Of a stretch of 64,000 bases of DNA, positions 20,339 through 32,220 are shown piece by piece. Source of the stretch: Burkholderiaceae bacterium (GTDB taxonomy: Bacteria > Pseudomonadota > Gammaproteobacteria > Burkholderiales > Burkholderiaceae_C); contig JAHCKM010000002.1 of NCBI GenBank assembly GCA_026125795.1, positions 186,001 through 250,000 of the forward strand, read 5' to 3'. A model generated the notes under the pieces. It was given only the letters and a program-made list of their open reading frames with translations. It was not told the origin of the DNA and ran no database searches. Position 1 is the stretch's first letter. Every line of letters begins with the position of its first letter. The position numbers and the translations under genes are program-made.

Positions 20339-21187
20339 TCAGTTCGGCTGATACGCCAGCCGCACGTAGATCGGCGCGAACGCCTCGGCCTGCGTCACCT
20401 CCAGCAGGCTCTCGCGCGCCAGCTCCAGCAGCGCGATGAAGGTGACCACGATCACCGGCGACGGTGCGTGCAGGTCGAACAGGTCGTGGAACTCGACGAA
20501 GCGCCGGCCCTGCAGCCGGCGCAGCACGATGCTCATGTGCTCGCGCACCGACAGCTGCTCGCGCGTGATGTGGTGGTGCGCCTTCAGGTTGGCGCGGCGG
20601 CTGATGTCGGCCCAGGCGTCGCGCAGGTCCTGCGGCGTCACCACGGGCAGGCGCGACTCGGGCGCCATCGCCGGCTGCAGCACCTGCACGCGCACGAAGT
20701 CGCGGCCGAGCAGCGGCAGCGCATCGAGCTGGGCGGCGGCCAGCTTGATCTGTTCGTACTCGAGCAGCCGGCGCACCAGCTCTGCGCGCGGATCCTCGGC
20801 CTCCTTGCCGTCCTCGGTCTTGCGCACCGGCAGCAGCATGCGCGACTTGATCTCGATCAGCATCGCCGCCATCAGCAGGTACTCGGCGGCCAGCTCGAGG
20901 TTGCGCGAACGGATCTGGTCGACGTACTCCAGGTACTGCTTGGTCACATCCGCCAGCGGGATGTCGAGGATGTTGAAGTTCTGGCGCCGGATCAGATACA
21001 GCAGCAGATCGAGCGGGCCCTCGAACGCCTCGAGGAACACCTCGAGCGCATCGGGCGGGATGTACAGGTCCTGCGGCAGCGCGAACAGCGGCTCGCCGTA
21101 CAGGCGCGCCACGGCCACGCCGTCAACCGTCAGCGGCACGTCGGTGCCGGCCGCACCCTGCTCTTCCAGTGCGATGGTGTCGTTCAC
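20339..21187 (-). CDS. scpA: Segregation and condensation protein A
   Basis: The 282-residue kleisin subunit of the SMC-ScpAB condensin has the family opening (LEAFEGPLDLLLYLIRRQN, DIPLADVTKQYLEYV), the AAEYLLMAAMLIEIKSRMLLP segment and a C-terminal winged helix ending FVAL-like (VTFIALLELARE). The N-terminus carries about 45 extra residues before the core. scpB is not adjacent on this side. It follows the DUF3460 gene by 9 nt. Confidence 0.93.
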   Translation of the reverse strand: MNDTIALEEQGAAGTDVPLTVDGVAVARLYGEPLFALPQDLYIPPDALEVFLEAFEGPLDLLLYLIRRQNFNILDIPLADVTKQYLEYVDQIRSRNLELAAEYLLMAAMLIEIKSRMLLPVRKTEDGKEAEDPRAELVRRLLEYEQIKLAAAQLDALPLLGRDFVRVQVLQPAMAPESRLPVVTPQDLRDAWADISRRANLKAHHHITREQLSVREHMSIVLRRLQGRRFVEFHDLFDLHAPSPVIVVTFIALLELARESLLEVTQAEAFAPIYVRLAYQPN

Positions 21188-21196
21188 GGCGGGCCG

Positions 21197-21412
21197 CTAC
21201 TTGCTCTCGGGTCCGACCTCGGTCTGGTAGACGTAGGCCTTTTGCGGCACCTGGGCCTCACCGTAGTCGGCCTGGGCATCGCGGTCGATCTGGCGGTCCC
21301 ACAGCAGCGCGCGTCCGGCACGCTGTTCGGCCTCGAGCGTGGGCTTCTTCGCCTTCAGCTCCTCGATGAACTGCGTGATCTCGGACTTGTAAGGTTTCCA
21401 GAACAGCGGCAT
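21197..21412 (-). CDS. DUF3460 family small protein
   Basis: The 71-residue soluble protein (MPLFWKPYKSEITQFIEELK...) matches the betaproteobacterial DUF3460 family, which commonly sits next to scpA. It is basic at the N-terminus and polar throughout, with no membrane segment. Function unknown. ATG 21421, three codons upstream, is an equally possible start. Confidence 0.8.
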   Translation of the reverse strand: MPLFWKPYKSEITQFIEELKAKKPTLEAEQRAGRALLWDRQIDRDAQADYGEAQVPQKAYVYQTEVGPESK

Positions 21413-21535: not shown

Positions 21536-23233
21536 TCAGTGACGCCCGCCCATCGGCGTCTGCGCATCGTCGTTGAAGGCGGCCGACACCGTCGGCACGA
21601 TCTGCTCGGCGCCGAGCACCTGCTCGAAGCCGGAGCGGCGGATCAGCGACAGCGGCTGGTCGTTGACGTTGGCCAGCACCAGCGCGATGCCACGCGCCTG
21701 CAGTGCACGGTGCAGTTGCTGCAACGCGTCGAGCCCCGAGGTGTCCATCGAGATCAGGCGGTGCATCTCGAGCACCACCGCGCGCGTGCTGCCTTCGATC
21801 TGCCCCGGCAGCGATTCGATCTTGCCCACCGCGCCGAAGAACAACGAGCCGAACAGCTCGAACACCTGCACGCCGGCCGGCAGCGTGCCATCGCTGTCGG
21901 TGCGCTGCAGCGTCTGCACGCGAAACAGCGTGCTCATGCGCCAGATGAAGAACACGCAGGCGAGGATCAACCCCACCTGCACGGCCACCGTGAGATCGAA
22001 CACCACGGTCAGCACGAAGGTGCCGACCAGAATGGTGCGGTACTGCAGGCTGAAGCGCGGAAGGCGCGCGAACTCGTGCCACTCGCCCATGTTCCACGCC
22101 ACGTACAGCAAGATGCCGGCCAGCGCCGCCAGCGGAACGTGCAGCGCCAGCGGCGCCGCCGCCAGCACCACCAGCAGCAGCGTGATCGCGTGCACGATGC
22201 CGGCCACCGGCGACGTGGCGCCGGCGCGCACGTTGGTGACGGTGCGCGCGATGGTGCCGGTGGCCGGGATGCCGCCGAAGAACGGCACCACGAAGTTGGC
22301 CACGCCCTGCGCCATCAGCTCCTGGTTGGGGTCGTGCCGCGGTTGTGTGCTCAGGTTGTCGGCCACGCGCGCGCACAGCAGCGACTCGATGGCGCCGAGC
22401 AGCGCGATCGTGATGGTGGGGATCAGCAGCTGCTTGGCCGATTCCCAACTGAACGGCGGCAGCGCCAGGTCGGGCAGGCTGCGCGGGATGCCACCGAAGC
22501 GCGAGCCGATCGTCTCCACCGGCAGGTGCAGCCACCACACCAGCGTGGTCATCGTGACCAGTGCGACCACCGGGCCCGGCACGCGCGCGAACGTGCGCAC
22601 CGTGCGGCCCTCGAGCAGCGCGGGCGGCAGCAGCGAGCCGGCGAACAGGCGCGGCCACAGCATCAGGCCGCCGAAGGTCGCCAGGCCGATCGCCAGCGCA
22701 TGCGGGTTGAGCGTTTGCGCATGCGTCCACAGCGTGCCGAGCAGGCCGAAGAAATCGGCCGGCAGCGCGCCGGGCACCACCAGGCCGAACAGGTCGCGCA
22801 GCTGCGACAACGCGATCAGCACCGCGATGCCGTTGGTGAAGCCGATCACCACCGCCACCGGCACATAGCGCACCAGCGCGCCGAGCTTCAAGAGGCCGAG
22901 CGCGAACAGCAGCACACCGGCCAGCGCGGTGCTGATCAGCAGGTTGGTCAGCCCGTAGCGCTGCACGATGCCGTAAACGATCACGATGAACGCCCCGGCC
23001 GGCCCGCCGATCTGCACGCTCGAGCCGCCGAGCGCGCTGATCAGGAAGCCCGCGACGATCGCGGTGATGATCCCCTGCTCGGGCTTGACGCCGGAGGCGA
23101 TCGCGAACGCCATCGCCAGCGGCAGCGCCACGATGCCCACCGTGGCGCCGGCGCCGATGTCGTGCCACAGGCGTTGGCGTTCGTAGCCGCGCAGGCTGTC
23201 CAGCAGGCGCGGGCGGAAGCGGTGCAGTTCCAT
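21536..23233 (-). CDS. SulP-family anion transporter with STAS domain
   Basis: The 565-residue SLC26/SulP protein has about 10-14 hydrophobic segments (residues 28-440; VGIVALPLAMAFAIASGV near the start, PVAGIVHAITLLLVVLAAAP later). A C-terminal STAS domain (about 455-560) carries the conserved MDTSGLDAL motif. SulP members move sulfate, bicarbonate or dicarboxylates with H+ or Na+. The start codon is 36 nt after the stop of the HyfI-like gene on the same strand. The transporter may therefore be the last gene of the Ehr operon. The substrate is unknown. Confidence 0.9.
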   Translation of the reverse strand: MELHRFRPRLLDSLRGYERQRLWHDIGAGATVGIVALPLAMAFAIASGVKPEQGIITAIVAGFLISALGGSSVQIGGPAGAFIVIVYGIVQRYGLTNLLISTALAGVLLFALGLLKLGALVRYVPVAVVIGFTNGIAVLIALSQLRDLFGLVVPGALPADFFGLLGTLWTHAQTLNPHALAIGLATFGGLMLWPRLFAGSLLPPALLEGRTVRTFARVPGPVVALVTMTTLVWWLHLPVETIGSRFGGIPRSLPDLALPPFSWESAKQLLIPTITIALLGAIESLLCARVADNLSTQPRHDPNQELMAQGVANFVVPFFGGIPATGTIARTVTNVRAGATSPVAGIVHAITLLLVVLAAAPLALHVPLAALAGILLYVAWNMGEWHEFARLPRFSLQYRTILVGTFVLTVVFDLTVAVQVGLILACVFFIWRMSTLFRVQTLQRTDSDGTLPAGVQVFELFGSLFFGAVGKIESLPGQIEGSTRAVVLEMHRLISMDTSGLDALQQLHRALQARGIALVLANVNDQPLSLIRRSGFEQVLGAEQIVPTVSAAFNDDAQTPMGGRH

Positions 23234-23269
23234 CGGGGGCTGGGGAGCGGTGAAGTGGCGTGCTGCGGT

Positions 23270-23797
23270 TCAGGCGGCGCTGGCGGTGCGCAAGCGGCGC
23301 ACCGCGACGAGGATGCCGCGCAGGATCTCGATCGGCGGCGGCGGGCAGCCCGCCACCGCCACATCCACCGGGATCACGTTGGCCACGCGCCCGCAGCTGG
23401 CATAACCCTCGCCGAAGATGCCGCCCGTGCAGCCGCAGTCGCCCAGCGCCACCACCAGCTTGGGCGCCGGCGTGGCGTCGAAGGTGCGGCGCAGCGCCAG
23501 TTCCATGTTGCGGGCCACCGGGCCGGTGACGAGCAGCATGTCGGCATGGCGCGGGCTGGCGACGAACTTGATGCCCAGCCCTTCGACGTTGTAGTAGGGG
23601 TTGTTGAGCGCGTGGATCTCCAGCTCGCAGCCGTTGCACGAGCCCGCATCGACTTGCCGGATGGCGAGCGCTCGCCCGAGGATGGCCAGGATCTCGGCGT
23701 GGATCTCGGAGGTGGCCGCTTCAAGGGCGCCGGCATCGACGGGCGCGGGCTCGGTTGCGATGCCCACCTGTGCGATCCGGCGCGCCATCTTGAACAT
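23270..23797 (-). CDS. HyfI/HycG-like small subunit (NuoB family) of an Ehr-type complex
   Basis: The 175-residue NuoB-family protein binds the proximal (N2-type) 4Fe-4S cluster in related complexes. The ligand pattern is complete: SCNGCELEIHALNNPYY (two Cys), GDCGCTGG, YASCGR and VAGCPPPP. The match to the hydrogenase-4/FHL branch is better than to respiratory complex I. It follows the large-subunit gene with no gap (stop at 23798). The cluster site is intact even though the large subunit has lost its metal ligands. Confidence 0.88.
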   Translation of the reverse strand: MFKMARRIAQVGIATEPAPVDAGALEAATSEIHAEILAILGRALAIRQVDAGSCNGCELEIHALNNPYYNVEGLGIKFVASPRHADMLLVTGPVARNMELALRRTFDATPAPKLVVALGDCGCTGGIFGEGYASCGRVANVIPVDVAVAGCPPPPIEILRGILVAVRRLRTASAA

Positions 23798-25429
23798 CTA
23801 GAGATCCTGCCCCGAGTAGCTGAGGTTGAACGATTTGTTGATGAGCGGAAAGTCCGGCACGATGTTGCCGATCACCGCATGCTCCAGCAGCGGCCAGTTC
23901 TGCCACGACGGGTCGTGGCAATGGCAGCGTGCGATCGTGCCGCCGCGCAGCTCGAGCGCCACCAGGATCTCGCCGCGCCAGCCCTCCACCCAGCCCGCGC
24001 CGTGTGCGGTACCTGCAGGCGGCGCAGGCAGCGCGCTGCGCAGCGTGCCGTCGGGCAGGCCGGTGAGCATTGCGCGGATCAGGCGTAGCGACTCGATGAC
24101 CTCGTCAAAGCGCACCGTCACGCGCGCCGCCACGTCGCCCTGCGTCGATCCCGCCTTTGCCACGCGCAACGCGCTGTAGGGCACCCACGCATGGTCGCAG
24201 CGCAGGTCATGTGCCTGTCCACTCGAGCGCCCGGCCAGGCCCGTGAGGCCGAGGCGGCGCGCCAGCTCGGGCGTGACGCGGCCGGTGCCGACCAGACGGT
24301 CCTGCAGGCCGGCGTGTTCGTCGTAGATCGCGCGCAAGCTGCGCAGCTCGGCGTCGACGCGTTCGCACAGCGCGTGCAGGCGCACGATCGCCGCGGCGTC
24401 CACGTCGTGCGCCACGCCGCCGGGCACGACGGCGTCCATCATCAGCCGGTGGCCGAAGCTCGCGGCCGACTCGCGCTGCCAGTCTTCGCGCAGCCGCGAG
24501 AACTGCGCCAGCCCGAAGGCCAGCGCGGCGTCGTTGCCGAGCGCACCGAGGTCGCCGAGGTGGTTGGCCACGCGCTCGCGCTCCAGCAGCAAGGCGCGCA
24601 GCCACACCGCGCGCGGCGGGATCCGGCCGCCGAGCGCCGATTCCAGCGCCATGCTGTAGGCCCACGCATACGCCACCGTGGAGTCGCCCGACACGCGGCC
24701 GGCGAGGCGGTGCGCATCAAACGGCGACAGTTCGGTGAAGCGCCGCTCGATGCCCTTGTGCACGTAGCCGAGCCGCTCCTCCAGGCGCAGCACCTTCTCG
24801 CCGACGATCGAGAAGCGGAAGTGCCCCGGCTCGATGATGCCGGCATGCACCGGGCCGACCGGGATCTCGTGCACGCCGTCGCCTTCCACCGCCACGAAGT
24901 CGTACTCGCCACGCGCGGAACGTGCCCCCAGGGCCGGGCTGGAGCCCGGCCCGCCCCCCGAGGGGGTCAAGGAACTCGGGAGCGGCCCTTCGTTCCTTGA
25001 GCGCGCCTCCGTTGCCCGCGCGGCCGATGCGCGGCGCAGCGGCAACGCCTCGGTCCAGGCGCCGTGGTCCAACCAGGCGCGCGCGTCCGCCGCGCCCTCG
25101 GCACGCAGGCCCACGAGGTCGGCGGTCGCGCGCTGCAGACGCGCCGCGCCCGGAAAGTGGCGCGCGATGTCGGGGTAGTGCGTCGATGCGCCGAGCACGA
25201 GGTCGAGCCACAACAGGCCGTCGGCGAGCGCGTAGGCGGCGCTGATGCGTGCGCCGCCCGATGCGGTGTCATCGTCGCGGCCCCACAGCGAGACCAGGCG
25301 TGCACCGGCGGCGGCCAGCTCCGCGGCCAGCGACAACCAGCGCGCGGCGTCGTGAATCTCGGTGTGGTGGATCGGCAGCGGCGCGTCGAGCACCGCCACA
25401 CCGGCCAGCTTGAGTTCACTCACCTTCAT
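23798..25429 (-). CDS. HyfG/HycE-like large subunit without NiFe ligands (Ehr-type)
   Basis: The 543-residue protein combines a NuoC-like N-terminal part (residues 1-140) and a NuoD/HycE-like part (from about 175: GPVHAGIIEPGHFRFS, GYVHKGIERRFTEL). In [NiFe] hydrogenases four Cys in two CxxC motifs hold the active site. Here the first position reads AGRVSGDSTVAY and the last reads INKSFNLSYSGQDL, both without Cys. It therefore cannot bind a NiFe centre and belongs with the energy-converting-hydrogenase-related (Ehr) group. Residues about 140-172 come from a hairpin repeat in frame, in the linker between the two halves. The start is the ATG at 25429; open frame upstream belongs to the next gene's region. 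Confidence 0.87.
   Translation of the reverse strand: MKVSELKLAGVAVLDAPLPIHHTEIHDAARWLSLAAELAAAGARLVSLWGRDDDTASGGARISAAYALADGLLWLDLVLGASTHYPDIARHFPGAARLQRATADLVGLRAEGAADARAWLDHGAWTEALPLRRASAARATEARSRNEGPLPSSLTPSGGGPGSSPALGARSARGEYDFVAVEGDGVHEIPVGPVHAGIIEPGHFRFSIVGEKVLRLEERLGYVHKGIERRFTELSPFDAHRLAGRVSGDSTVAYAWAYSMALESALGGRIPPRAVWLRALLLERERVANHLGDLGALGNDAALAFGLAQFSRLREDWQRESAASFGHRLMMDAVVPGGVAHDVDAAAIVRLHALCERVDAELRSLRAIYDEHAGLQDRLVGTGRVTPELARRLGLTGLAGRSSGQAHDLRCDHAWVPYSALRVAKAGSTQGDVAARVTVRFDEVIESLRLIRAMLTGLPDGTLRSALPAPPAGTAHGAGWVEGWRGEILVALELRGGTIARCHCHDPSWQNWPLLEHAVIGNIVPDFPLINKSFNLSYSGQDL
24931..25000 (-). repeat. Double-hairpin GC-rich repeat within the Ehr large-subunit gene
   Basis: On the plus strand GGGCCGGGCT-GG-AGCCCGGCCC (24931-24952) is a perfect 10-bp hairpin. 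After a C-run/G-run stem, TCAAGGAAC (24967-24975) pairs with GTTCCTTGA (24992-25000) across a 16-nt loop. Its right half recurs at 63953-63986 with one mismatch in the shared 34 nt, in the same orientation relative to the host coding strand. Confidence 0.8.
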
Positions 25430-25431
25430 GC

Positions 25432-26886
25432 TCAGCCGCCGATCATCTGCGCGGCCTGGCGGTACCAGGCGTCGAGGTAGGGCGGCACGTACAGGCCGAG
25501 CAACAGACTCAGCGCCAAGTGCACGAACACCGGCACCAGCGCCGGCGGATGCGCCAGGGCTTTCAGCGTGGTGTCGCCGAACACCATCGGCTGCACGCGG
25601 CCGAGCACTGAAGCGAACGCCACGCCCAGAGCCAGCAGCAGAAACGGCGTGGCCCACGGCTGCTCGCGCATCGCGGTGGTGATGATCAGGAACTCGCTGG
25701 CGAACACGCCGAATGGCGGCATGCCGAGGATGGCGAGCGAGCCGATCATCAGCCCCCAGCCGACCGGCGGGCTCACCTTGACCAGGCCACGGATGTCGTC
25801 CATCACCTGCGTGCCGGCCTTCTGCGCCGCGTGGCCCACCGCGAAGAAGATGGCCGACTTGGTGAGCGAGTGCACCGTCATGTGCAGCAGGCCGGCAAAG
25901 TTGGCGATGGCCCCGCCCATGCCGAACGCAAACGTCATCAGCCCCATGTGCTCGATCGACGAGTACGCGAACATGCGCTTGATGTCGCGCTGGCGCATCA
26001 GGAAGAACGCCGCCGCCACCACCGACACCAGGCCGAAGGCCATCATCATGCGGCCCGCCAGCGGGCTCTGCAGCGCGCCGTCGGTCAGCACCTTGCAGCG
26101 CAAGACGGCGTACAGCGCCACGTTGAGCAGCAGCCCGGACAACACCGCCGACACCGGCGTCGGGCCTTCGGCGTGCGCGTCGGGCAGCCAGTTGTGCACC
26201 GGCACCAGGCCCACCTTGGTGCCGTAGCCGATGAACAGGAACGCGAACGCCAGCGTGATGATGTTCGGATCGAGGTTAGCCTTCACCGCGTCGAGGTTGG
26301 TCCACAGCAGCGCGCCGCCTTCCGAACCCAGCACCTTCTCGGCCGCCATGTAGAGCATCACGGTGCCGAACAGCGCCTGCGCGATGCCCACGCCGCACAG
26401 AATGAAGTACTTCCACGCCGCCTCCAGGCTGGCCGCGGTGCGGTACACGCTGACCAGCAGCACGGTGGTCAACGTGGCGGCTTCCATCGCCACCCACAGG
26501 ATGCCCATGTTGTTGGTGGTCAGCGCCAGCAGCATCGTGAAGGCGAACAGCTGGTACATGCTGTGATACAGGCGCAGCCGCGGCGGCGTCATCTTGCCGT
26601 GGTCACGCTCCACGCGCATGTACGGGCGCGAGAACAGCGCCGTGGTCATGCCGACGAACGACGTGAGCGCGACCAGAAACACATTGAGCGGGTCGATGAA
26701 GAACTCGCGCTCCCACGCGAACATCGGGCCGTCGGCCACCACCTGCACGGTGAGCACGCAGGCGGCGAGAAACGTGCCGGTGCTGAACGCCACGTTGATC
26801 TCCATCGCGCGATCGCGGTGGCCGAACAACGCCAGCGTGATGCCTCCGGTGAGCGGGATCGCGAGGACGAAGAAGAGGGCGTTCAT
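25432..26886 (-). CDS. HyfF-like antiporter-type membrane subunit (NuoL/M/MrpD family)
   Basis: The 484-residue polytopic protein (about 13-14 hydrophobic segments) has the proton-translocating family core: WVAMEAATLTTVLLVSVYRT, GTKVGLVPVHNWLPDAHAEG with the conserved Lys, and KRMFAYSSIEHMGLM. It matches HyfF of hydrogenase-4 and should pump H+ or Na+ as part of the Ehr complex. The ATG at 26886 is the first good start; a TTG four codons upstream is possible. The large-subunit gene follows after 2 nt. Upstream lies a 592-nt gap within the operon that holds a structured element. Confidence 0.9.
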   Translation of the reverse strand: MNALFFVLAIPLTGGITLALFGHRDRAMEINVAFSTGTFLAACVLTVQVVADGPMFAWEREFFIDPLNVFLVALTSFVGMTTALFSRPYMRVERDHGKMTPPRLRLYHSMYQLFAFTMLLALTTNNMGILWVAMEAATLTTVLLVSVYRTAASLEAAWKYFILCGVGIAQALFGTVMLYMAAEKVLGSEGGALLWTNLDAVKANLDPNIITLAFAFLFIGYGTKVGLVPVHNWLPDAHAEGPTPVSAVLSGLLLNVALYAVLRCKVLTDGALQSPLAGRMMMAFGLVSVVAAAFFLMRQRDIKRMFAYSSIEHMGLMTFAFGMGGAIANFAGLLHMTVHSLTKSAIFFAVGHAAQKAGTQVMDDIRGLVKVSPPVGWGLMIGSLAILGMPPFGVFASEFLIITTAMREQPWATPFLLLALGVAFASVLGRVQPMVFGDTTLKALAHPPALVPVFVHLALSLLLGLYVPPYLDAWYRQAAQMIGG

Positions 26887-27478
26887 GTGCTTGTGCAACG
26901 ACCGAGCGAGGCAAAGCCGCGGCCGGGTGTGCGCCGGCGCTCGGCTGCGGCGGCCGGCCTGCGGCCGGCTCCCCTCCGGTCCTCGATCGCATGGCCCGCG
27001 TCGAAACTCGCTTCACTCACTTCGTTCGTTGCGCTCGAACAATCGACGCGAGTCAGATGTTGAAGCGCGCGCTGCGCGCGCGCGGCCATGCGCTCTGCGG
27101 TCCTCGGCGCCACAGATGTCGCTGCCGGCACACACCCGACCACGGCTTTGCCGCACCACCGAGGTACTCCACGACGAACACCACGAGCGTCTCTGCGCGG
27201 TGGGCGGTACCCGGGGTGGGCGACTTGTGGGGCGGCGAGGAGCGGACCAGCACAAGGGGGAGTCCGGCGCGCTTCGAGCGCCGGACCGGCGAGAAGCCAT
27301 GAAGCAGCGGCGCGTTCAGCGCCGCTTGCGAGCGGCATCGCAGCCGCCCTTGTGATGGGAGCACCGCAGCGCAGTCGGCCTGCAAGGCCGACCGACCCAG
27401 CAGGAGCCCGCCCCGGGTACCGCCCACCGCGCCGCGCCATCGCGCCGCAAGTGAGTTGAAGTCGCCGCCGCAGCATGC
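26887..27478. other. Long non-coding gap inside the Ehr operon
   Basis: No frame here resembles a protein; codon bias is absent, and open frames are short and mutually antisense. The left half (26940-27110) has GC-rich palindromic stretches such as GCGCGCGCTGCGCGCGCGC. The right half holds the inverted-repeat element at 27195-27432. Other genes of this operon are 0-40 nt apart, so the gap looks like inserted sequence. Confidence 0.7.
27195..27432. repeat. 238-bp element with 22-bp perfect terminal inverted repeats
   Basis: Bases 27195-27216 (core GGGCGGTACCCGGGG) are an exact reverse complement of 27411-27432 (core CCCCGGGTACCGCCC). Between them are three further perfect hairpins: GTCCGGCGC/GCGCCGGAC (27262-27286), GCGGCGC/GCGCCGC (27307-27325) and GTCGGCC/GGCCGAC (27374-27392). 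There is no coding sequence and no obvious target duplication. The form suggests a MITE-like or REP-like mobile element, or a structured RNA. Confidence 0.7.
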
Positions 27479-28138
27479 TCAGTCTTCCTTCAGCCGCTCG
27501 AGGTGCCGGATGTCCAGGCTGTCGAACTGCTCGCGGATCTGGAACATGAACACGCCGAGGATCAGCACGCCGATCAGCACGTCGAGCGCGATACCCAGCT
27601 CCACCACCATCGGCATGCCGTAGGTGGCCGAGGTGGCGGCGAAGAACAGGCCGTTTTCCATCGACAGGAAGCCCACCACCTGCGGGATCGCCTTGGCGCG
27701 CGTGATCATCATCATGAACGACAGCAGCACGCAGGCCAGCGCGATGCCCAGCGTGCCGCGCGCGACGGTCGACGAGAAGCGCGCGATCGGCAGTCCGAGG
27801 TTGAACGCGAAAATCACCAGCAGGATGCCGATCAGCATCGTGGTCGGGATGTTGATCAGCGGCTCGGTGTCCCAGCGCACCTCCAGGCGCTGGATCACAC
27901 GGTGCAGCATGATCGGGATCAGCACCACCTTGAGCACCAGCGTCAACGCGGCCGAGACGAACAGGTGCGGCTGCCCGGTGGCATAACCCACCACCGCGGT
28001 GGCCACCACCAGGATTGCGCCTTGCATCGTGAACAGGTGCACCAGCGACAGCACGCGGCGCTGCGACAGCATGGCGAACGCCAGCATCAGCAGCACCGCG
28101 CCGAGCAGGTTGATGCCTTGCGACAGCAGCGGGCTCAT
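27479..28138 (-). CDS. HyfE-like membrane subunit
   Basis: The 219-residue protein has about 6-7 hydrophobic segments. It resembles HyfE of hydrogenase-4 (a longer relative of the NuoK/MrpC subunit): FTMQGAILVVATAVVGYATG, LKVVLIPIMLHRVI, and GFLSMENGLFFAATSATYG, where the conserved acidic ENGL lies in a membrane helix. It should form part of the ion path of the Ehr complex. It lies 12 nt downstream of the hyfC-like gene and 592 nt upstream of the hyfF-like gene. Confidence 0.88.
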   Translation of the reverse strand: MSPLLSQGINLLGAVLLMLAFAMLSQRRVLSLVHLFTMQGAILVVATAVVGYATGQPHLFVSAALTLVLKVVLIPIMLHRVIQRLEVRWDTEPLINIPTTMLIGILLVIFAFNLGLPIARFSSTVARGTLGIALACVLLSFMMMITRAKAIPQVVGFLSMENGLFFAATSATYGMPMVVELGIALDVLIGVLILGVFMFQIREQFDSLDIRHLERLKED

Positions 28139-28150
28139 CGAACGATCTTC

Positions 28151-29098
28151 CTAGGTGCCCAGCAGGATGTGCACCAGCAGCCCGATCACTGCCAGCAGGA
28201 ACGCGGTGGCCAGGAACTCCGGCACGCGGAAGATGCGCATCTTGGCGCTCAGCGTCTCCAGCCCCGCCAGGGCGGCACCGCCGATGGCGAGCTTGAGCAG
28301 CAGCGTGGGCAGCGCGAGCAGCATCTCCAGCGGCGCATGCGCCTCGGCCACGCCCCACGGAAAGAACAGCGCCAGGCCGGCGCACGAGTAGGCAAACAGC
28401 TTCAGGCTCGCCGCCCATTCGATCAGCGCCAGGTGCCGGCCCGAGTATTCGAGGATCAGCGCCTCGTGGATCATCGTCAGCTCCAGGTGCGTGGCCGGGT
28501 TGTCCACCGGCACGCGCGCGTTCTCGGCCAGCGAGACGATCGTGAAGGCCACGCCGGCGAACGCCAGGCTCGGGTAGATCGCCAGCTCGCGGTGCGCCAG
28601 CGTTTCGACGATGGTGGCCAGCGAGGTCGATTGCGAGATCAGCGACGCACAGAACAGCACCATCAGCAGCGCCGGCTCGGCCAGGAAGCCGATCAGCATC
28701 TCGCGCCGCGCGCCCAGCGTGCCGAACGAGGTGCCGATGTCCATCGCCGCCAGCGAGATGAACACGCGCGCCAGCGCGAACAGCCCCACCAGGGCGATCG
28801 CGTCGGCCGCCAGCGACAGCGGCAGGTCGGTGGACAGCGTGGGGATGATCGAGCAGGCCAGCGCCATGCAGCCGAACACGATGTACGGCGTGGCGCGGAA
28901 CAGCGGCGAGGCGTGCTCGGCCACCACCGATTCCTTGTTGAACAGCTTGTGCAGCAGGTGGTACGGCTGCAGCAGCGGCGGCGCCGATTTGTTCTGCAGC
29001 CAGGCGCGGCACTGGTTGACCCAGCCGGTGAGCAGCGGTGCCAGCGCGAGCGCGAGCACGATCTCGAGCAGCTGCGACAGCACGCCAGTCCAGGTCAT
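28151..29098 (-). CDS. HyfC/HycD-like membrane subunit (NuoH family)
   Basis: This 315-residue protein has eight hydrophobic segments. Family signatures are LLQPYHLLHKLFNKESV, TSFGTLGARREMLIG and SLAENARVPVDNPATHLELT, then MIHEALILEYSG. NuoH-type subunits link the peripheral arm to the membrane arm. The start overlaps the hyfB-like stop by 4 nt. Confidence 0.9.
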   Translation of the reverse strand: MTWTGVLSQLLEIVLALALAPLLTGWVNQCRAWLQNKSAPPLLQPYHLLHKLFNKESVVAEHASPLFRATPYIVFGCMALACSIIPTLSTDLPLSLAADAIALVGLFALARVFISLAAMDIGTSFGTLGARREMLIGFLAEPALLMVLFCASLISQSTSLATIVETLAHRELAIYPSLAFAGVAFTIVSLAENARVPVDNPATHLELTMIHEALILEYSGRHLALIEWAASLKLFAYSCAGLALFFPWGVAEAHAPLEMLLALPTLLLKLAIGGAALAGLETLSAKMRIFRVPEFLATAFLLAVIGLLVHILLGT

Positions 29099-31119
29099 TG
29101 CCGCACCACCAGCAGCAACGCGATCAGCGTGACGAAGCTGAACAACAGGTACACCGCGATGCGGCCCTGCTGCAGCAGCCCCACCAGCCGCGCCACGCGG
29201 AACACCGCATCGACGATCGGCCAGTACAGCGCGCGCCAGAAGTGGTCTTCGACCGTCACCTTGTAGCGCGGCTGCGTGTCAAACGGCGACGGCAGGTGGC
29301 GCTGCATGTGGAAGAACGGCTCGAAGATCTGGCGGATCGGCTGGCCGAAGCCTTCGGCGGTGTCCTGCATGCGCGCGGTCTGCCAGGGGAAGCCGCAGTC
29401 CCACGGCGCGGCGCGGCGGATGCGGCCGTGGTAGAGCTTGCGCACCAGCAGAAACGCGAGCCCGAAGCTCGCCGCCACGCCGACCAGGAAGATCACCGGC
29501 CCGTAGCTCGCGCGCTCGATCGTGGTGGGCACCAGCAGCCAGCCGTGCTGCGCCACCGTGGCGCCGATGCCGTCGCCCACCAGCGTCTGCGTGACCGGAT
29601 CGACGAGTTGGATGAACGGCATCGGCAGCAGGCCGAGCAGCACGCTGCAGCCGAGCAGCCAGGCCATGCCGGCGCGCTGCCACGCATTGGCGTCGTGCGC
29701 CTGCGCCAGCCGCGGCTCGCGCGGGCGGCCGAGGAAGATGACGCCGAAGAACTTGACCATCGTGTAGCCGGCCAGCGCCGCCACCAGCGCGATCAACGCC
29801 GCGGCCACCGGGATCAGCATGTTGAGAAACGAATCGGGCAGGCCCGGCGTGAACAGGAAGCTCTGCAGCAACAGCCACTCGGCGACGAAGCCGCTCGACG
29901 GCGGCAGGCCGGCGCTGGACAGCACGCCGGCCAGCGCGGCCCACGCCACCCACGGCATCGCGCGCATCAGGCCGCCGAGCTTGCCGAGGTTGCGCTCGCC
30001 GGTGGCGTGCAGGACCGAGCCGGTGCAGAGGAACAGCAGGCTCTTGAAGAGCGCGTGGCTCGCCACGTGCACCAGCGTGGCGGTGAGCGCCAGCGCGGCC
30101 AGCGTGCGCATCGAGTAGGCGGCAAACACCACGGTCAAGCCGATGCCGGCCGCGAGCAGGCCGATGTTCTCGATCGACGAGTACGCCAGCAGCCGCTTCA
30201 TGTCGCTCTGCACGGCGGCGAACACCACGCCGAACAGCGCGGTGGCCAGCCCGATCGCGAGCAGCACCACGCCCCACCACCAGATCGGCGTGTGCAGCAG
30301 ATCGAGCAGCACGCGCAGCAGGCCGTAGATGGCGGTCTTGAGCATCACCGCGCTCATCAGCGCCGACACCGGCGACGGCGCCGCCGGGTGCGCCTCGGGC
30401 AGCCAGATGTGCAGCGGCAGCAGCCCGGCCTTGGCGCCAAAGCCGAAGAGGGCGAGCGCAAACGCCACCGAGGCCCAGAACGGCGACAGCGACTGCGCGC
30501 GCATGTTGGCGAAGCTGTAGTCGCCGGTGTTGGCCTGCAGCACGCCAAAGCACATCAGGATGCCGATCGCGCCGACATGCGCCACCAGCAGGTACAGATA
30601 GCCGGCGTGCCGGATCTCGGCCACGCGGTGGTTGGAGGTGACGAGGAAGAACGACGACAGCGCCATCGTCTCCCACATCACCATGAAGGCATAGGCATCG
30701 TCGGCCAGCACCACGCCGGCCATGCTGGCCAGGAACACGTGGTACTGCAGGCACATCAGGCCCGGCGGCGTGCCCTCGCCGTGGCGAAAGTAGCCGGCCG
30801 CGAACGCCGACACGCCGGCCGCGGTGGCGCCGATCACCATGAGGAAGAACGCCGAGAGCGCATCGAGCCGCAGGTGAAACGGCAGCGTCGGCAGGCCGAC
30901 GGCCAGCACCGCCACCTGCGGCGGCGCGAACAGCGCGGCCGCGGCCACGCCGGCCAGCAGCAACCCCACCACGCCGCCCAGCGGAAACAGCGCGTGCGAA
31001 ACCAGCTCGAAGCGGCGCAGCGCCCAGATGCCCGCGGCGCCGATCAGCAGCCAGGCGAGCAGCAGCACCAGGGCCCAGTCGAGCAGCAGCCACTGCGTGA
31101 TGTCAGTCTGGATGCCCAT
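29095..31119 (-). CDS. HyfB-like antiporter-type membrane subunit
   Basis: The 674-residue polytopic protein of the NuoL/MrpA family has about 16 hydrophobic segments. Recognisable parts are ETMALSSFFLVTSNHR, GFGAKAGLLPLHIWLPEAHP with the conserved Lys and Pro, MKRLLAYSSIENIGL, and the HyfB-like C-terminus with WDCGFPWQTARMQDTAEGF. The start is the ATG at 31119 (MGIQTDITQWLLLDW); upstream open frame is Arg/Pro-rich and unlike HyfB. First structural gene of the Ehr complex, 37 nt after the RHH gene. Confidence 0.9.
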   Translation of the reverse strand: MGIQTDITQWLLLDWALVLLLAWLLIGAAGIWALRRFELVSHALFPLGGVVGLLLAGVAAAALFAPPQVAVLAVGLPTLPFHLRLDALSAFFLMVIGATAAGVSAFAAGYFRHGEGTPPGLMCLQYHVFLASMAGVVLADDAYAFMVMWETMALSSFFLVTSNHRVAEIRHAGYLYLLVAHVGAIGILMCFGVLQANTGDYSFANMRAQSLSPFWASVAFALALFGFGAKAGLLPLHIWLPEAHPAAPSPVSALMSAVMLKTAIYGLLRVLLDLLHTPIWWWGVVLLAIGLATALFGVVFAAVQSDMKRLLAYSSIENIGLLAAGIGLTVVFAAYSMRTLAALALTATLVHVASHALFKSLLFLCTGSVLHATGERNLGKLGGLMRAMPWVAWAALAGVLSSAGLPPSSGFVAEWLLLQSFLFTPGLPDSFLNMLIPVAAALIALVAALAGYTMVKFFGVIFLGRPREPRLAQAHDANAWQRAGMAWLLGCSVLLGLLPMPFIQLVDPVTQTLVGDGIGATVAQHGWLLVPTTIERASYGPVIFLVGVAASFGLAFLLVRKLYHGRIRRAAPWDCGFPWQTARMQDTAEGFGQPIRQIFEPFFHMQRHLPSPFDTQPRYKVTVEDHFWRALYWPIVDAVFRVARLVGLLQQGRIAVYLLFSFVTLIALLLVVRQ

Positions 31120-31156: not shown

Positions 31157-31396
31157 TCAGGCCTTGGATCGTCGCGCGGACTTGCCGCCGCTGCGGCCGG
31201 GCCGCGCCCCGGCACGCGGCGCCGTCGCCGGCGTGCCGCTGGGCACGTAGCTCACGCCGTGCTGCGCCAGATAGTCGCGGATCAGTTGGCGCACCACCTG
31301 CGACGGCGTCAGATCCTGCTGGGCGCACAGGCGCTCGAAGGCGGCCTTCTTGTTGGGATCGACCAGCAGGGTCAGCCTGGCAGTCTTCAGCTCCAT
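31157..31396 (-). CDS. Small ribbon-helix-helix-type protein
   Basis: The 79-residue protein starts at the ATG at 31396. Its first ~50 residues (MELKTARLTLLVDPNKKAAF, then ERLCAQQDLTPSQVVRQLIR) fit the beta-alpha-alpha layout of RHH DNA-binding proteins. The last ~25 residues are Gly/Ser/Arg/Lys-rich (GRSGGKSARRSKA) and may contact nucleic acid. It lies directly upstream of the Ehr genes on the same strand, so it could regulate them. That role is an inference from position only. Confidence 0.68.
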   Translation of the reverse strand: MELKTARLTLLVDPNKKAAFERLCAQQDLTPSQVVRQLIRDYLAQHGVSYVPSGTPATAPRAGARPGRSGGKSARRSKA

Positions 31397-31449: not shown

Positions 31450-32220
31450 TCATGCGCCCCGGTCCGGGCCGCGCGCGCTGCTGCGCAATGCACTTTCGAT
31501 GCGCGCGAACGCCGCCTTCAGCTGCTCGGCGGCCGCCGGTGCCAGCCCGCGCGGGCGCGCCACACCACCCGCCGGCGCCTGCAGCGCACGGCCCTTGCGC
31601 GCGAAGACGATGCTGTTCTGCGGCTCGCCGTTGTCCACCACCAGCTGCGCGCCGTCGCAGCTGCGTGCGATGCGCTCGACGTGCACCTCATACAGCGGGT
31701 GATCGTGGTGCAGGTTGACCACCAGGATGCCGCCCGGCAGCAGCGCGTCGAAGCAGTCGTGATAGAAGCGCTGCGACGACAGGCGCGCGGGCAGGCCGTC
31801 GATGTCAAAGCCGTCGACCAGCAGCACGTCGAAGCGGCTCGGCGGGTAACGCACGAAGTAGGCGCCGTCGGCGTGCACGATGCAAAAGCGTGCGTCGTCC
31901 TTCGGCACGTGGAACTCGTGGCGCAGCGCGATCACGTGCGGGTTGATCTCGACGACGCGGATCTCGGCGCGCGGCAGGTGGCGATGGCAGAACTTGGCCA
32001 ACGACCCGCCGCCCAGCCCGATCATCGCGATGCGCGCCGGCTCGGGCTCGAACAGCAGGAAGCCCATCATCGTGCGCGTGTATTCCAGATCGAGCGCGCA
32101 AGGGTCCTGCAATTGCATCCGGCTCTGGATCTCGCCGTACGCGAAGTGCAATGCCTTCGCGCTCAGGGTCTCATGGACGAACGGCTTGGCGAACGCCGTG
32201 GATTCGGGGTTGTCTGGCAT
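31450..32220 (-). CDS. Spermidine synthase-like (SpeE-fold) methyltransferase-family protein
   Basis: The 256-residue protein has a SpeE-type Rossmann core: IAMIGLGGGSLAKFCHRHLP, IRVVEINPHVIALRHEF, DARFCIVHADGAYFVRYPP and FDVLLVDGFDIDG. These correspond to the GGG loop, the acidic residue that binds the nucleoside, and the DG motif. Whether it makes polyamines is unclear; many such homologues without a SpeD partner are unassigned. ATG 32220 gives the usual N-terminus (MPDNPES); an in-frame GTG at 32253 is possible. It is 53 nt upstream of the RHH gene. Confidence 0.8.
   Translation of the reverse strand: MPDNPESTAFAKPFVHETLSAKALHFAYGEIQSRMQLQDPCALDLEYTRTMMGFLLFEPEPARIAMIGLGGGSLAKFCHRHLPRAEIRVVEINPHVIALRHEFHVPKDDARFCIVHADGAYFVRYPPSRFDVLLVDGFDIDGLPARLSSQRFYHDCFDALLPGGILVVNLHHDHPLYEVHVERIARSCDGAQLVVDNGEPQNSIVFARKGRALQAPAGGVARPRGLAPAAAEQLKAAFARIESALRSSARGPDRGA

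Follow-up and report, generated by a model that had tools for sequence, protein, structure and literature searches.

What can a complex with the build of a group 4 [NiFe] hydrogenase do once every ligand of its metal site has gone? The question is raised by a six-gene operon, B-C-E-F-G-I, in a Burkholderiaceae bacterium (assembly GCA_026125795.1, contig JAHCKM010000002.1, positions 186,001 to 250,000; this whole stretch of 64,000 nucleotides is referred to as the window, and its source genome as the host). Going by its predicted proteins, the operon encodes an energy-converting-hydrogenase-related (Ehr) complex, a published type (the match to published Ehr is by description and carries no subgroup assignment). 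We read it, with a probability of roughly 0.6, as a redox-driven ion pump of the Ehr type, a member of the complex I/group 4 hydrogenase superfamily that has no NiFe site, with the adjoining SulP transporter gene as a resident neighbour. A ligand-free group-4-like complex is of a known kind, and the SulP association is an effect of the locus; what appears to be new in detail is that the large subunit G ends at the mature hydrogenase end, that its former metal site is near-invariant, and that the pump residues are intact in both antiporter-like subunits.

In the papers cited here, published Ehr complexes combine the same group-4-like subunits with a missing NiFe-binding motif, and their function is either called unknown or linked, without test, to a formate dehydrogenase (PMC6349859, PMC7894505, PMC10284858, PMC10432482). 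The Geobacter Ehr likewise has HyfE- and NuoL-like membrane subunits (PMC7894505). No counterpart to our SulP analysis, to the list of G residues or to the repeat described below was found in our searches of open-licence PMC literature, and the available part of a C. necator fitness study makes no mention of hyf, hydrogenase-4 or SulP (PMC11540253).

An operon of six subunits

An earlier note on this DNA had described six genes in the order B-C-E-F-G-I, with a SulP gene beginning 36 nt past the small-subunit gene; all six are confirmed, on the minus strand, as is the gap (23234-23269). B, C and E are closely packed, as are F, G and I, and the distance of 592 bp between E and F is a correction to that note. 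The operon comprises:

29095..31119, minus strand: HyfB/HycC-like antiporter-type subunit (B), 674 aa, assigned by NCBIfam and comparison with HycC
28151..29098, minus strand: HyfC/HycD/NuoH-like membrane anchor (C), 315 aa, assigned by comparison with HycD
27479..28138, minus strand: HyfE-like membrane subunit (E), 219 aa; PRK11492 at 88.6 bits, under the cut-off of 136, and no Pfam match
26887..27478 (core 26901-27438), minus strand: E-F spacer, one copy of a non-coding repeat, structured and oriented, that recurs across the genome
25432..26886, minus strand: HyfF/NuoM-like antiporter-type subunit (F), 484 aa, assigned by NCBIfam
23798..25429, minus strand: HyfG/HycE-like large subunit (G), 543 aa, assigned by the HycE alignment
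23270..23797, minus strand: HyfI/MbhJ/NuoB-like small subunit (I), 175 aa, with four Cys and one predicted [4Fe-4S] cluster

Both antiporter-type subunits pass NCBIfam equivalog cut-offs, B for "hydrogenase 4 subunit B" (896.4 vs 667 bits) and F for "hydrogenase 4 subunit F" (906.8 vs 543 bits). The gene order is what we take to be that of hyf minus A, D and H.

Relatives were the best 80 of 590 confirmed candidates from a scan of genome contigs with G as the query; these loci are not all independent, L003 and L004 belonging to the same genome. Genes entered the conservation counts only if they passed filters on length and identity, which left 79 for G, 79 for I, 68 for C, 69 for E, 73 for F and 63 for B, from at most 80 loci. 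The full order B-C-E-F-G-I is found at 69 of the 80 loci, the other 11 (four FGI, four GI, three CEFGI) ending at contig ends, and no extra gene was called inside any of the 81 operons, window included. Within the taxonomic order, a G homologue occurs in 100 of 399 genomes and 53 of 165 genera (two of the genomes counting only through a relative of 39% identity). Ehr complexes are thus widespread there, and the relatives of this operon include the cultured genera Cupriavidus, Ramlibacter, Paraburkholderia and Rhodoferax.

Two features by which Ehr complexes are recognised are present: a large subunit homologous to group 4 hydrogenases and NuoD that lacks both NiFe CxxC motifs, and a small subunit with the proximal-cluster Cys alongside Mrp/NuoL-like and NuoH-like membrane subunits. 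The reading of the earlier note, i.e., an Ehr-type complex without a NiFe site or an 8-Fe subunit, is supported for the window and its relatives, the loss of ligands in Ehr being already published.

The former metal site of the large subunit

A fusion of the NuoC/D type, subunit G has its best match among solved structures in HycE of E. coli formate hydrogenlyase (FHL; 257.6 bits), followed by MbhL (142.2) and plant NuoD (137). Foldseek with an AlphaFold model of G placed 7z0s_E at rank 1; the model was made for G alone, from an alignment of 45 of the 81 G sequences, and has a mean predicted local distance difference test score (pLDDT) of 78.9.

The claim that all four NiFe ligands are gone is borne out by the alignment with HycE, which puts no Cys at any ligand position. 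At the former first CxxC the window protein reads AGRVSGDSTVAY, with RVSGDS for RVCGIC of HycE, and at its C-terminal end it reads SFNLSYSGQDL, with FNLSYSG for LDPCYSC; the four Cys positions are occupied by Ser247, Ser250, Ser537 and Gly540. NiFe cysteines elsewhere in the protein, which the earlier note had named as a finding that would overturn it, are likewise missing: the only Cys are 355, 411, 502 and 504 (kept in 75, 51, 78 and 55 of 79 relatives, respectively), none of them at a ligand position. Ligand-position Cys number none in 76 of the 79 relatives, one in three (L036 and L052 at 247, L076 at 537) and two in no case, so that none of these proteins can build a four-Cys site. The positions read SSSG in 58 of 79, the others having ATNG, STSG, SSAG, ASNG, SSGA, CSSG (2) or ASCG (1). 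Moreover, the C-terminus of the 81 listed G proteins coincides with the mature (processed) end of a hydrogenase large subunit, past which the HycE chain continues.

To judge from these alignments, the former metal site has near-invariant residues of its own. Near the lost ligands, K532, S533, F534, L536, Y538 and D542 are each found in 79/79 relatives and N535 in 78/79; H503 and H505 are also at 79/79. PMC9474812 names E193, S283, H284, R395, E437, R478 and D529 as proton-network residues of HycE and calls D529 strictly conserved. Mapped through the HycE alignment, E200 (HycE E193), H290 (H284), R401 (R395), E443 (E437) and R485 (R478) each stand at 79/79, while N289 (S283) is Asn in 76/79.

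The host genome, 98.9% complete, gave no match to HypD (the control search was positive in 4 of 14 genomes, E. coli included), and no other NiFe large subunit was found in it, the sole NiFeSe_Hases match being G itself, under the cut-off; together, these results make it very unlikely that the complex is a NiFe hydrogenase in this host. FHL (HycBCDEFG) and hydrogenase 4 (Hyd-4, Hyf), among which the best solved-structure matches of G, B and C are found (HycE, HycC and HycD, respectively), differ from the window complex in several respects. The latter has no NiFe site with its two CxxC motifs, no HypD found in its host, no HycF/HycB or HyfA/HyfH ferredoxin subunit in the operon, and no C-terminal extension of the large subunit, whereas it does have the Lys of transmembrane helix 7 (TM7) in B. 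The HyfBCEFG clusters of A. caldus carry the same subunit letters and are described as hydrogenase-4 (PMC3826726), the likeness being one of names.

One predicted cluster and an intact membrane arm

The small subunit keeps its four cluster Cys, as first noted: C54, C57, C121 and C151 are present in 79/79 relatives. Their spacing is that of MbhJ in the Pyrococcus membrane-bound hydrogenase (MBH), with a CxxC where complex I has two Cys side by side, and I is predicted to hold one fully Cys-ligated [4Fe-4S] cluster; unlike MBH, the window complex has no MbhN/MbsN-type clusters. The absence of a HyfH/NuoI-like 8-Fe subunit also holds, in that no ferredoxin-like protein was found among the eight window proteins scanned and the operon has no HycF/HyfH-type gene. 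A CxxCxxCxxxC protein lies within three genes on either side of 4 of the 81 operons; three of these (L016, L046, L066) belong, as small subunits, to Ehr complexes of another type, and the fourth (L056) is a 422-aa protein on the opposite strand.

Among solved structures, B is closest to HycC (219.5 bits) and C matches HycD (147.5 bits), while F matches MbsH/MbhH and NuoL/NuoM-type subunits. Residues identical in all counted relatives are E150, K230, H355, K359 and E414 of B (63/63), E135, K224, K343 and E398 of F (73/73), and R111, E133, E141, E192 and D199 of C (68/68). The TM5 Glu/TM7 Lys pair of a proton-pumping arm (helix numbers assigned through comparison with HycC) is therefore intact in both antiporter-type subunits, as E150/K230 in B and E135/K224 in F, together with further Lys and Glu. 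By contrast, the pair is broken in HycC by L208, according to PMC9474812; K230 of B stands at that very position. Some positions do vary or differ: B K261 (49/63) and B H351 (52/63) are not fixed, the Lys of TM8 is replaced in F by Asn255 (73/73), and the channel Tyr102 of HycD corresponds to Gly105 in C. With its main residues in B, F and C kept, the membrane arm looks pump-competent, and pumping itself may be inferred.

How the complex might work, and rival explanations

We propose that a soluble electron carrier would dock on I, whose single [4Fe-4S] cluster would conduct electrons in one direction or the other between the carrier and a small substrate free of metal. This substrate would sit in what was once the NiFe cage of G, with E200, R245, R485, K532 and N535 around it. 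Changes in protonation at the cage would then travel along the charged channel of C and reach B and F, the subunits that would move protons. In a more specific form, offered tentatively and at odds well below even, the betaproteobacterial six-subunit Ehr would be a one-cluster, metal-cage-free proton pump in which the same [4Fe-4S] serves both donor and acceptor, with a non-metal site built on K532, N535, E200 and the NKSFNLSYSGxDL tail. If true, this would represent a reaction type not yet known in the complex I superfamily.

Several points weigh against our reading of a redox-driven pump with SulP as a bystander. The model of G is poor (pLDDT <50) at 118-125, 146-225 and 522-543, pocket loops included. 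The canopy Asp (HycE D529, strictly conserved according to PMC9474812) is Asn (N535) in 78/79 relatives, such that proton handling at the site must differ from that of hydrogenases and complex I. A lone cluster, with no ferredoxin-type subunit beside it, does not settle which path the electrons would take. The authors of the Geobacter Ehr study suggest a formate dehydrogenase link and hydrogen from formate (PMC7894505). No recurring neighbour gene that hints at a partner was found in the portion of 169 neighbour clusters scanned, the neighbours being very diverse. Finally, SulP closely follows I in three genomes of the same genus (window, G003, G005), where co-expression is possible. What is gained nonetheless is a list of altered-site residues, a subgroup that still looks redox-active and pump-competent, evidence against the mechanism of the Pyrococcus membrane-bound sulfane reductase (MBS), cultured relatives in which the complex could be tested, and removal of the SulP lead.

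The complex could instead be a quinone oxidoreductase, its former NiFe cage binding quinone as in complex I. Such a change has already been seen in the superfamily, E200 and H203 are retained in G within its counterpart of the β1-β2 loop, and the membrane arm looks complete. The residue that we take to be the quinone-head Tyr of complex I (Tyr87 in Thermus), however, aligns with G248, an invariant Gly in the relatives; the canopy Asp is Asn, and I has CxxC where NuoB has adjacent Cys. On balance, we consider quinone chemistry unlikely. In its general build the complex is homologous to NuoC/D, NuoB, NuoH and NuoL/M of complex I, and its operon has neither an NADH module nor NuoI.

Somewhat less probable still is a pump for inorganic-carbon or pH homeostasis, whose proton movement would support CO2/bicarbonate handling. 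In A. caldus, one HyfBCEFG cluster has a β-carbonic anhydrase gene next to it and a second is found together with carbon-fixation genes (PMC3826726), the host encodes a RuBisCO large subunit, and DabA genes lie near the Ehr operon in L019 (15056-18250) and L053 (16146-19415). Yet DabA-cluster genes occur at only these 2 of 80 loci, and DabA, the mark of a DAB inorganic-carbon transporter, is absent from those window genes that were scanned; SulP of the window falls far short of the cut-off for BicA (220.8 vs 880 bits), and genomes with Ehr tend to lack its orthologue.

Two further possibilities strike us as improbable, and equally so. Fe-S-catalysed sulfane/disulfide reduction as in Pyrococcus MBS has the appeal of a relative that has been characterised and functions although its NiFe site is gone, two of the four ligands being lost; there, as stated in PMC7684303, the proximal cluster has only three Cys, from a shortened motif, and this is the basis of NiFe-free working. 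The predicted cluster of I, with MbhJ spacing and four invariant Cys instead of three from a shortened motif, speaks against such a mechanism here, and the two MbsN clusters of MBS are not encoded in the operon. The other possibility is a cation/proton antiporter that needs no redox chemistry, with G and I serving a structural or regulatory purpose. B and F do keep their antiporter residues and an electron partner was not found, but 79/79 relatives share, without exception, the cluster Cys of I and many residues of the G pocket, a conservation that is difficult to account for if no redox work is done.

A formate-linked module, in which a separately encoded formate dehydrogenase would feed the complex, is slightly less probable than either. 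It has been proposed for the Ehr complexes of Margulisbacteria and Geobacter (PMC6349859, PMC7894505), but the operon has no HycF/HycB-type linker subunit and no formate dehydrogenase gene was found among the window genes scanned, the whole genome not having been searched for one.

SulP and a resident chromosomal locus

The genes that flank the operon are:

20339..21187, minus strand: ScpA, a marker of the resident chromosomal locus
21197..21412, minus strand: DUF3460, a second marker of that locus
21536..23233, minus strand: SulP/STAS anion transporter, a neighbour; best NCBIfam match DauA (466.7 bits, under the cut-off of 614)
31157..31396, minus strand: RHH_9 ribbon-helix-helix (RHH) protein, upstream of the operon
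31450..32220, minus strand: spermidine-synthase-like protein, upstream of the operon

The earlier note had raised a link between ion pumping and anion uptake, and asked whether SulP and the RHH gene stay with the complex. Both are adjacent to it in some relatives, but neither stays with it. Among the 69 loci where 1.5 kb or more of sequence lies beyond I, SulP directly follows I on the same strand in two (L010, L038); in L026 it lies upstream on the opposite strand, and in L034 some ~7.6 kb downstream, again on the opposite strand. Within the genus (six genomes), G is found in five and SulP in four, the two being adjacent in G000, G003 and G005 and apart in G002, while G001 has Ehr only. The total absence of SulP beside the cluster in relatives, which that note would have taken as refutation, is hence not what we see, with I and SulP adjacent in G003, G005, L010 and L038.

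Where does SulP reside otherwise? Of 135 SulP matches, we read 18 loci, hand-picked from the better-scoring part, 16 of them in genomes without an Ehr match and two in genomes with Ehr elsewhere. In 18/18, SulP lies within ~6 kb of metG and/or DUF3460-scpA, between both in 14, while the other four show one of the two flanks. Conversely, 28 of the 80 Ehr loci have DUF3460/ScpA, and 16 of 80 have metG too. Since SulP occurs beside metG/DUF3460-scpA without Ehr, and Ehr at that same locus without SulP, the two mostly alternate at one locus, metG-DUF3460-scpA, and the window has both.

Counts across genomes point the same way. Close SulP homologues occur in 3/26 Ehr genomes of the family vs 132/224 without Ehr (Fisher p = 3.7e-6), and in 4/100 vs 77/299 in the order (p = 2.8e-7), both values uncorrected for kinship, from overlapping genome sets and at E cut-offs of 1e-170 (family) and 1e-150 (order) that leave weaker SulP relatives uncounted; one of the four order-level genomes with both (G495) has an Ehr relative of only 39%. 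Five genera of the family contain one Ehr-only and one SulP-only genome each (among those listed: G093/G187, G094/G188, G101/G195, G194/G100 and G202/G112).

A functional tie between the ion pumping of the complex and SulP anion uptake, for which the 36-nt gap in the window and the adjacency in G003, G005, L010 and L038 would speak, thus has very little probability left given 2/69 loci, the position of SulP near metG/DUF3460-scpA, with no Ehr beside it, at the other loci read, and the anti-correlation of the genes. We accordingly rejected SulP as a partner on adjacency, on the 18 SulP loci and on co-occurrence. Rather, SulP appears to be a resident of the metG-DUF3460-scpA locus, into which the Ehr operon would have come, and probably does not belong to the complex; read-through may lead to its co-transcription, but it would be neither a subunit nor an obligate partner. 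The RHH gene lies directly before B at 12 of 62 loci, and in 3 of the 18 SulP loci it comes before SulP with no Ehr present; it is therefore specific to neither, and RHH_9 may regulate whichever genes occupy the locus.

A structured repeat between E and F

The 592-bp E-F spacer holds a repeat of ~535 nt that is present at no fewer than 40 places in the host genome, i.e., at least 40 (40 of 355 candidates were scored), and that has no Rfam match. The spacers of two other species of the genus, G001 and G002, hold diverged copies (84% and 79%), whereas in G005 a few bases separate E from F. Across the family, the repeat was found at E <=1e-30 in 5 of 150 genomes, host included, with four candidates per genome scored.

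In the 40 copies read, with flanking genes called by a simple codon-usage open reading frame finder, both flanking genes are co-oriented with the repeat in 35, both opposite in 2 and mixed in 3 (35 vs 2, p = 1e-8). As RNA, the window copy folds far better than its shuffles (z = -9.8), although DNA of either strand would form such hairpins too; two of the hairpins are large. In 25 near-complete copies (24 from the host, one from G001), 167 pairs form in 98.3% of alignment cells. Covariation is strong: two-sided pair changes number 35 vs 20.1 in shuffles and 2-8 in slid controls, bearing in mind that copies within one genome are related and that the cells are not independent events. With mainly-G-U pairs excluded, paired cells are G-U in 90 and A-C in 30; counted by pairs, the figures are 38 vs 24 (p = 0.10, not significant). 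The excess of G-U over A-C leans towards selection on RNA of the repeat's strand.

The repeat is perhaps an intercistronic structured element that sets mRNA stability between B-C-E and F-G-I. As an oriented, covarying element of ~535 nt inside operons, it is possibly a separate object, and one that may be more novel than the Ehr complex itself.

Other neighbours and further Ehr types

Nine sampled neighbours of the operon gave varied families in six cases and no family in three. Control by hypoxia through FNR/ANR was considered and found unsupported: in the 350 bp upstream of B at 64 loci, sites with <=2 mismatches to the consensus, as we presume it to read, occur in 7 vs ~8 expected, and sites with <=1 mismatch in none. 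In 10 of 62 relatives, and in differing genomic settings, a spermidine-synthase-like gene precedes the Ehr operon on its strand.

Two further Ehr types were seen in the company of window-type operons. Type 2, in tandem with or near such an operon (L031:12190-19521, L044:16476-20800, L055:1-4825), has a G that is 44-48% identical and ends CNKSVNGSYSGxDL, and has no ferredoxin part. Type 3 lies near window-type operons in L016:4-1980, L046:37-3720, L059:19412-21582, L063:17836-21584 and L066:13864-21361; here a ferredoxin-like stretch with two Cys sets is fused to the small subunit (five sequences; Pfam scan of L046 and L063), and the large subunit ends CNKSFDLSYCGNDL.

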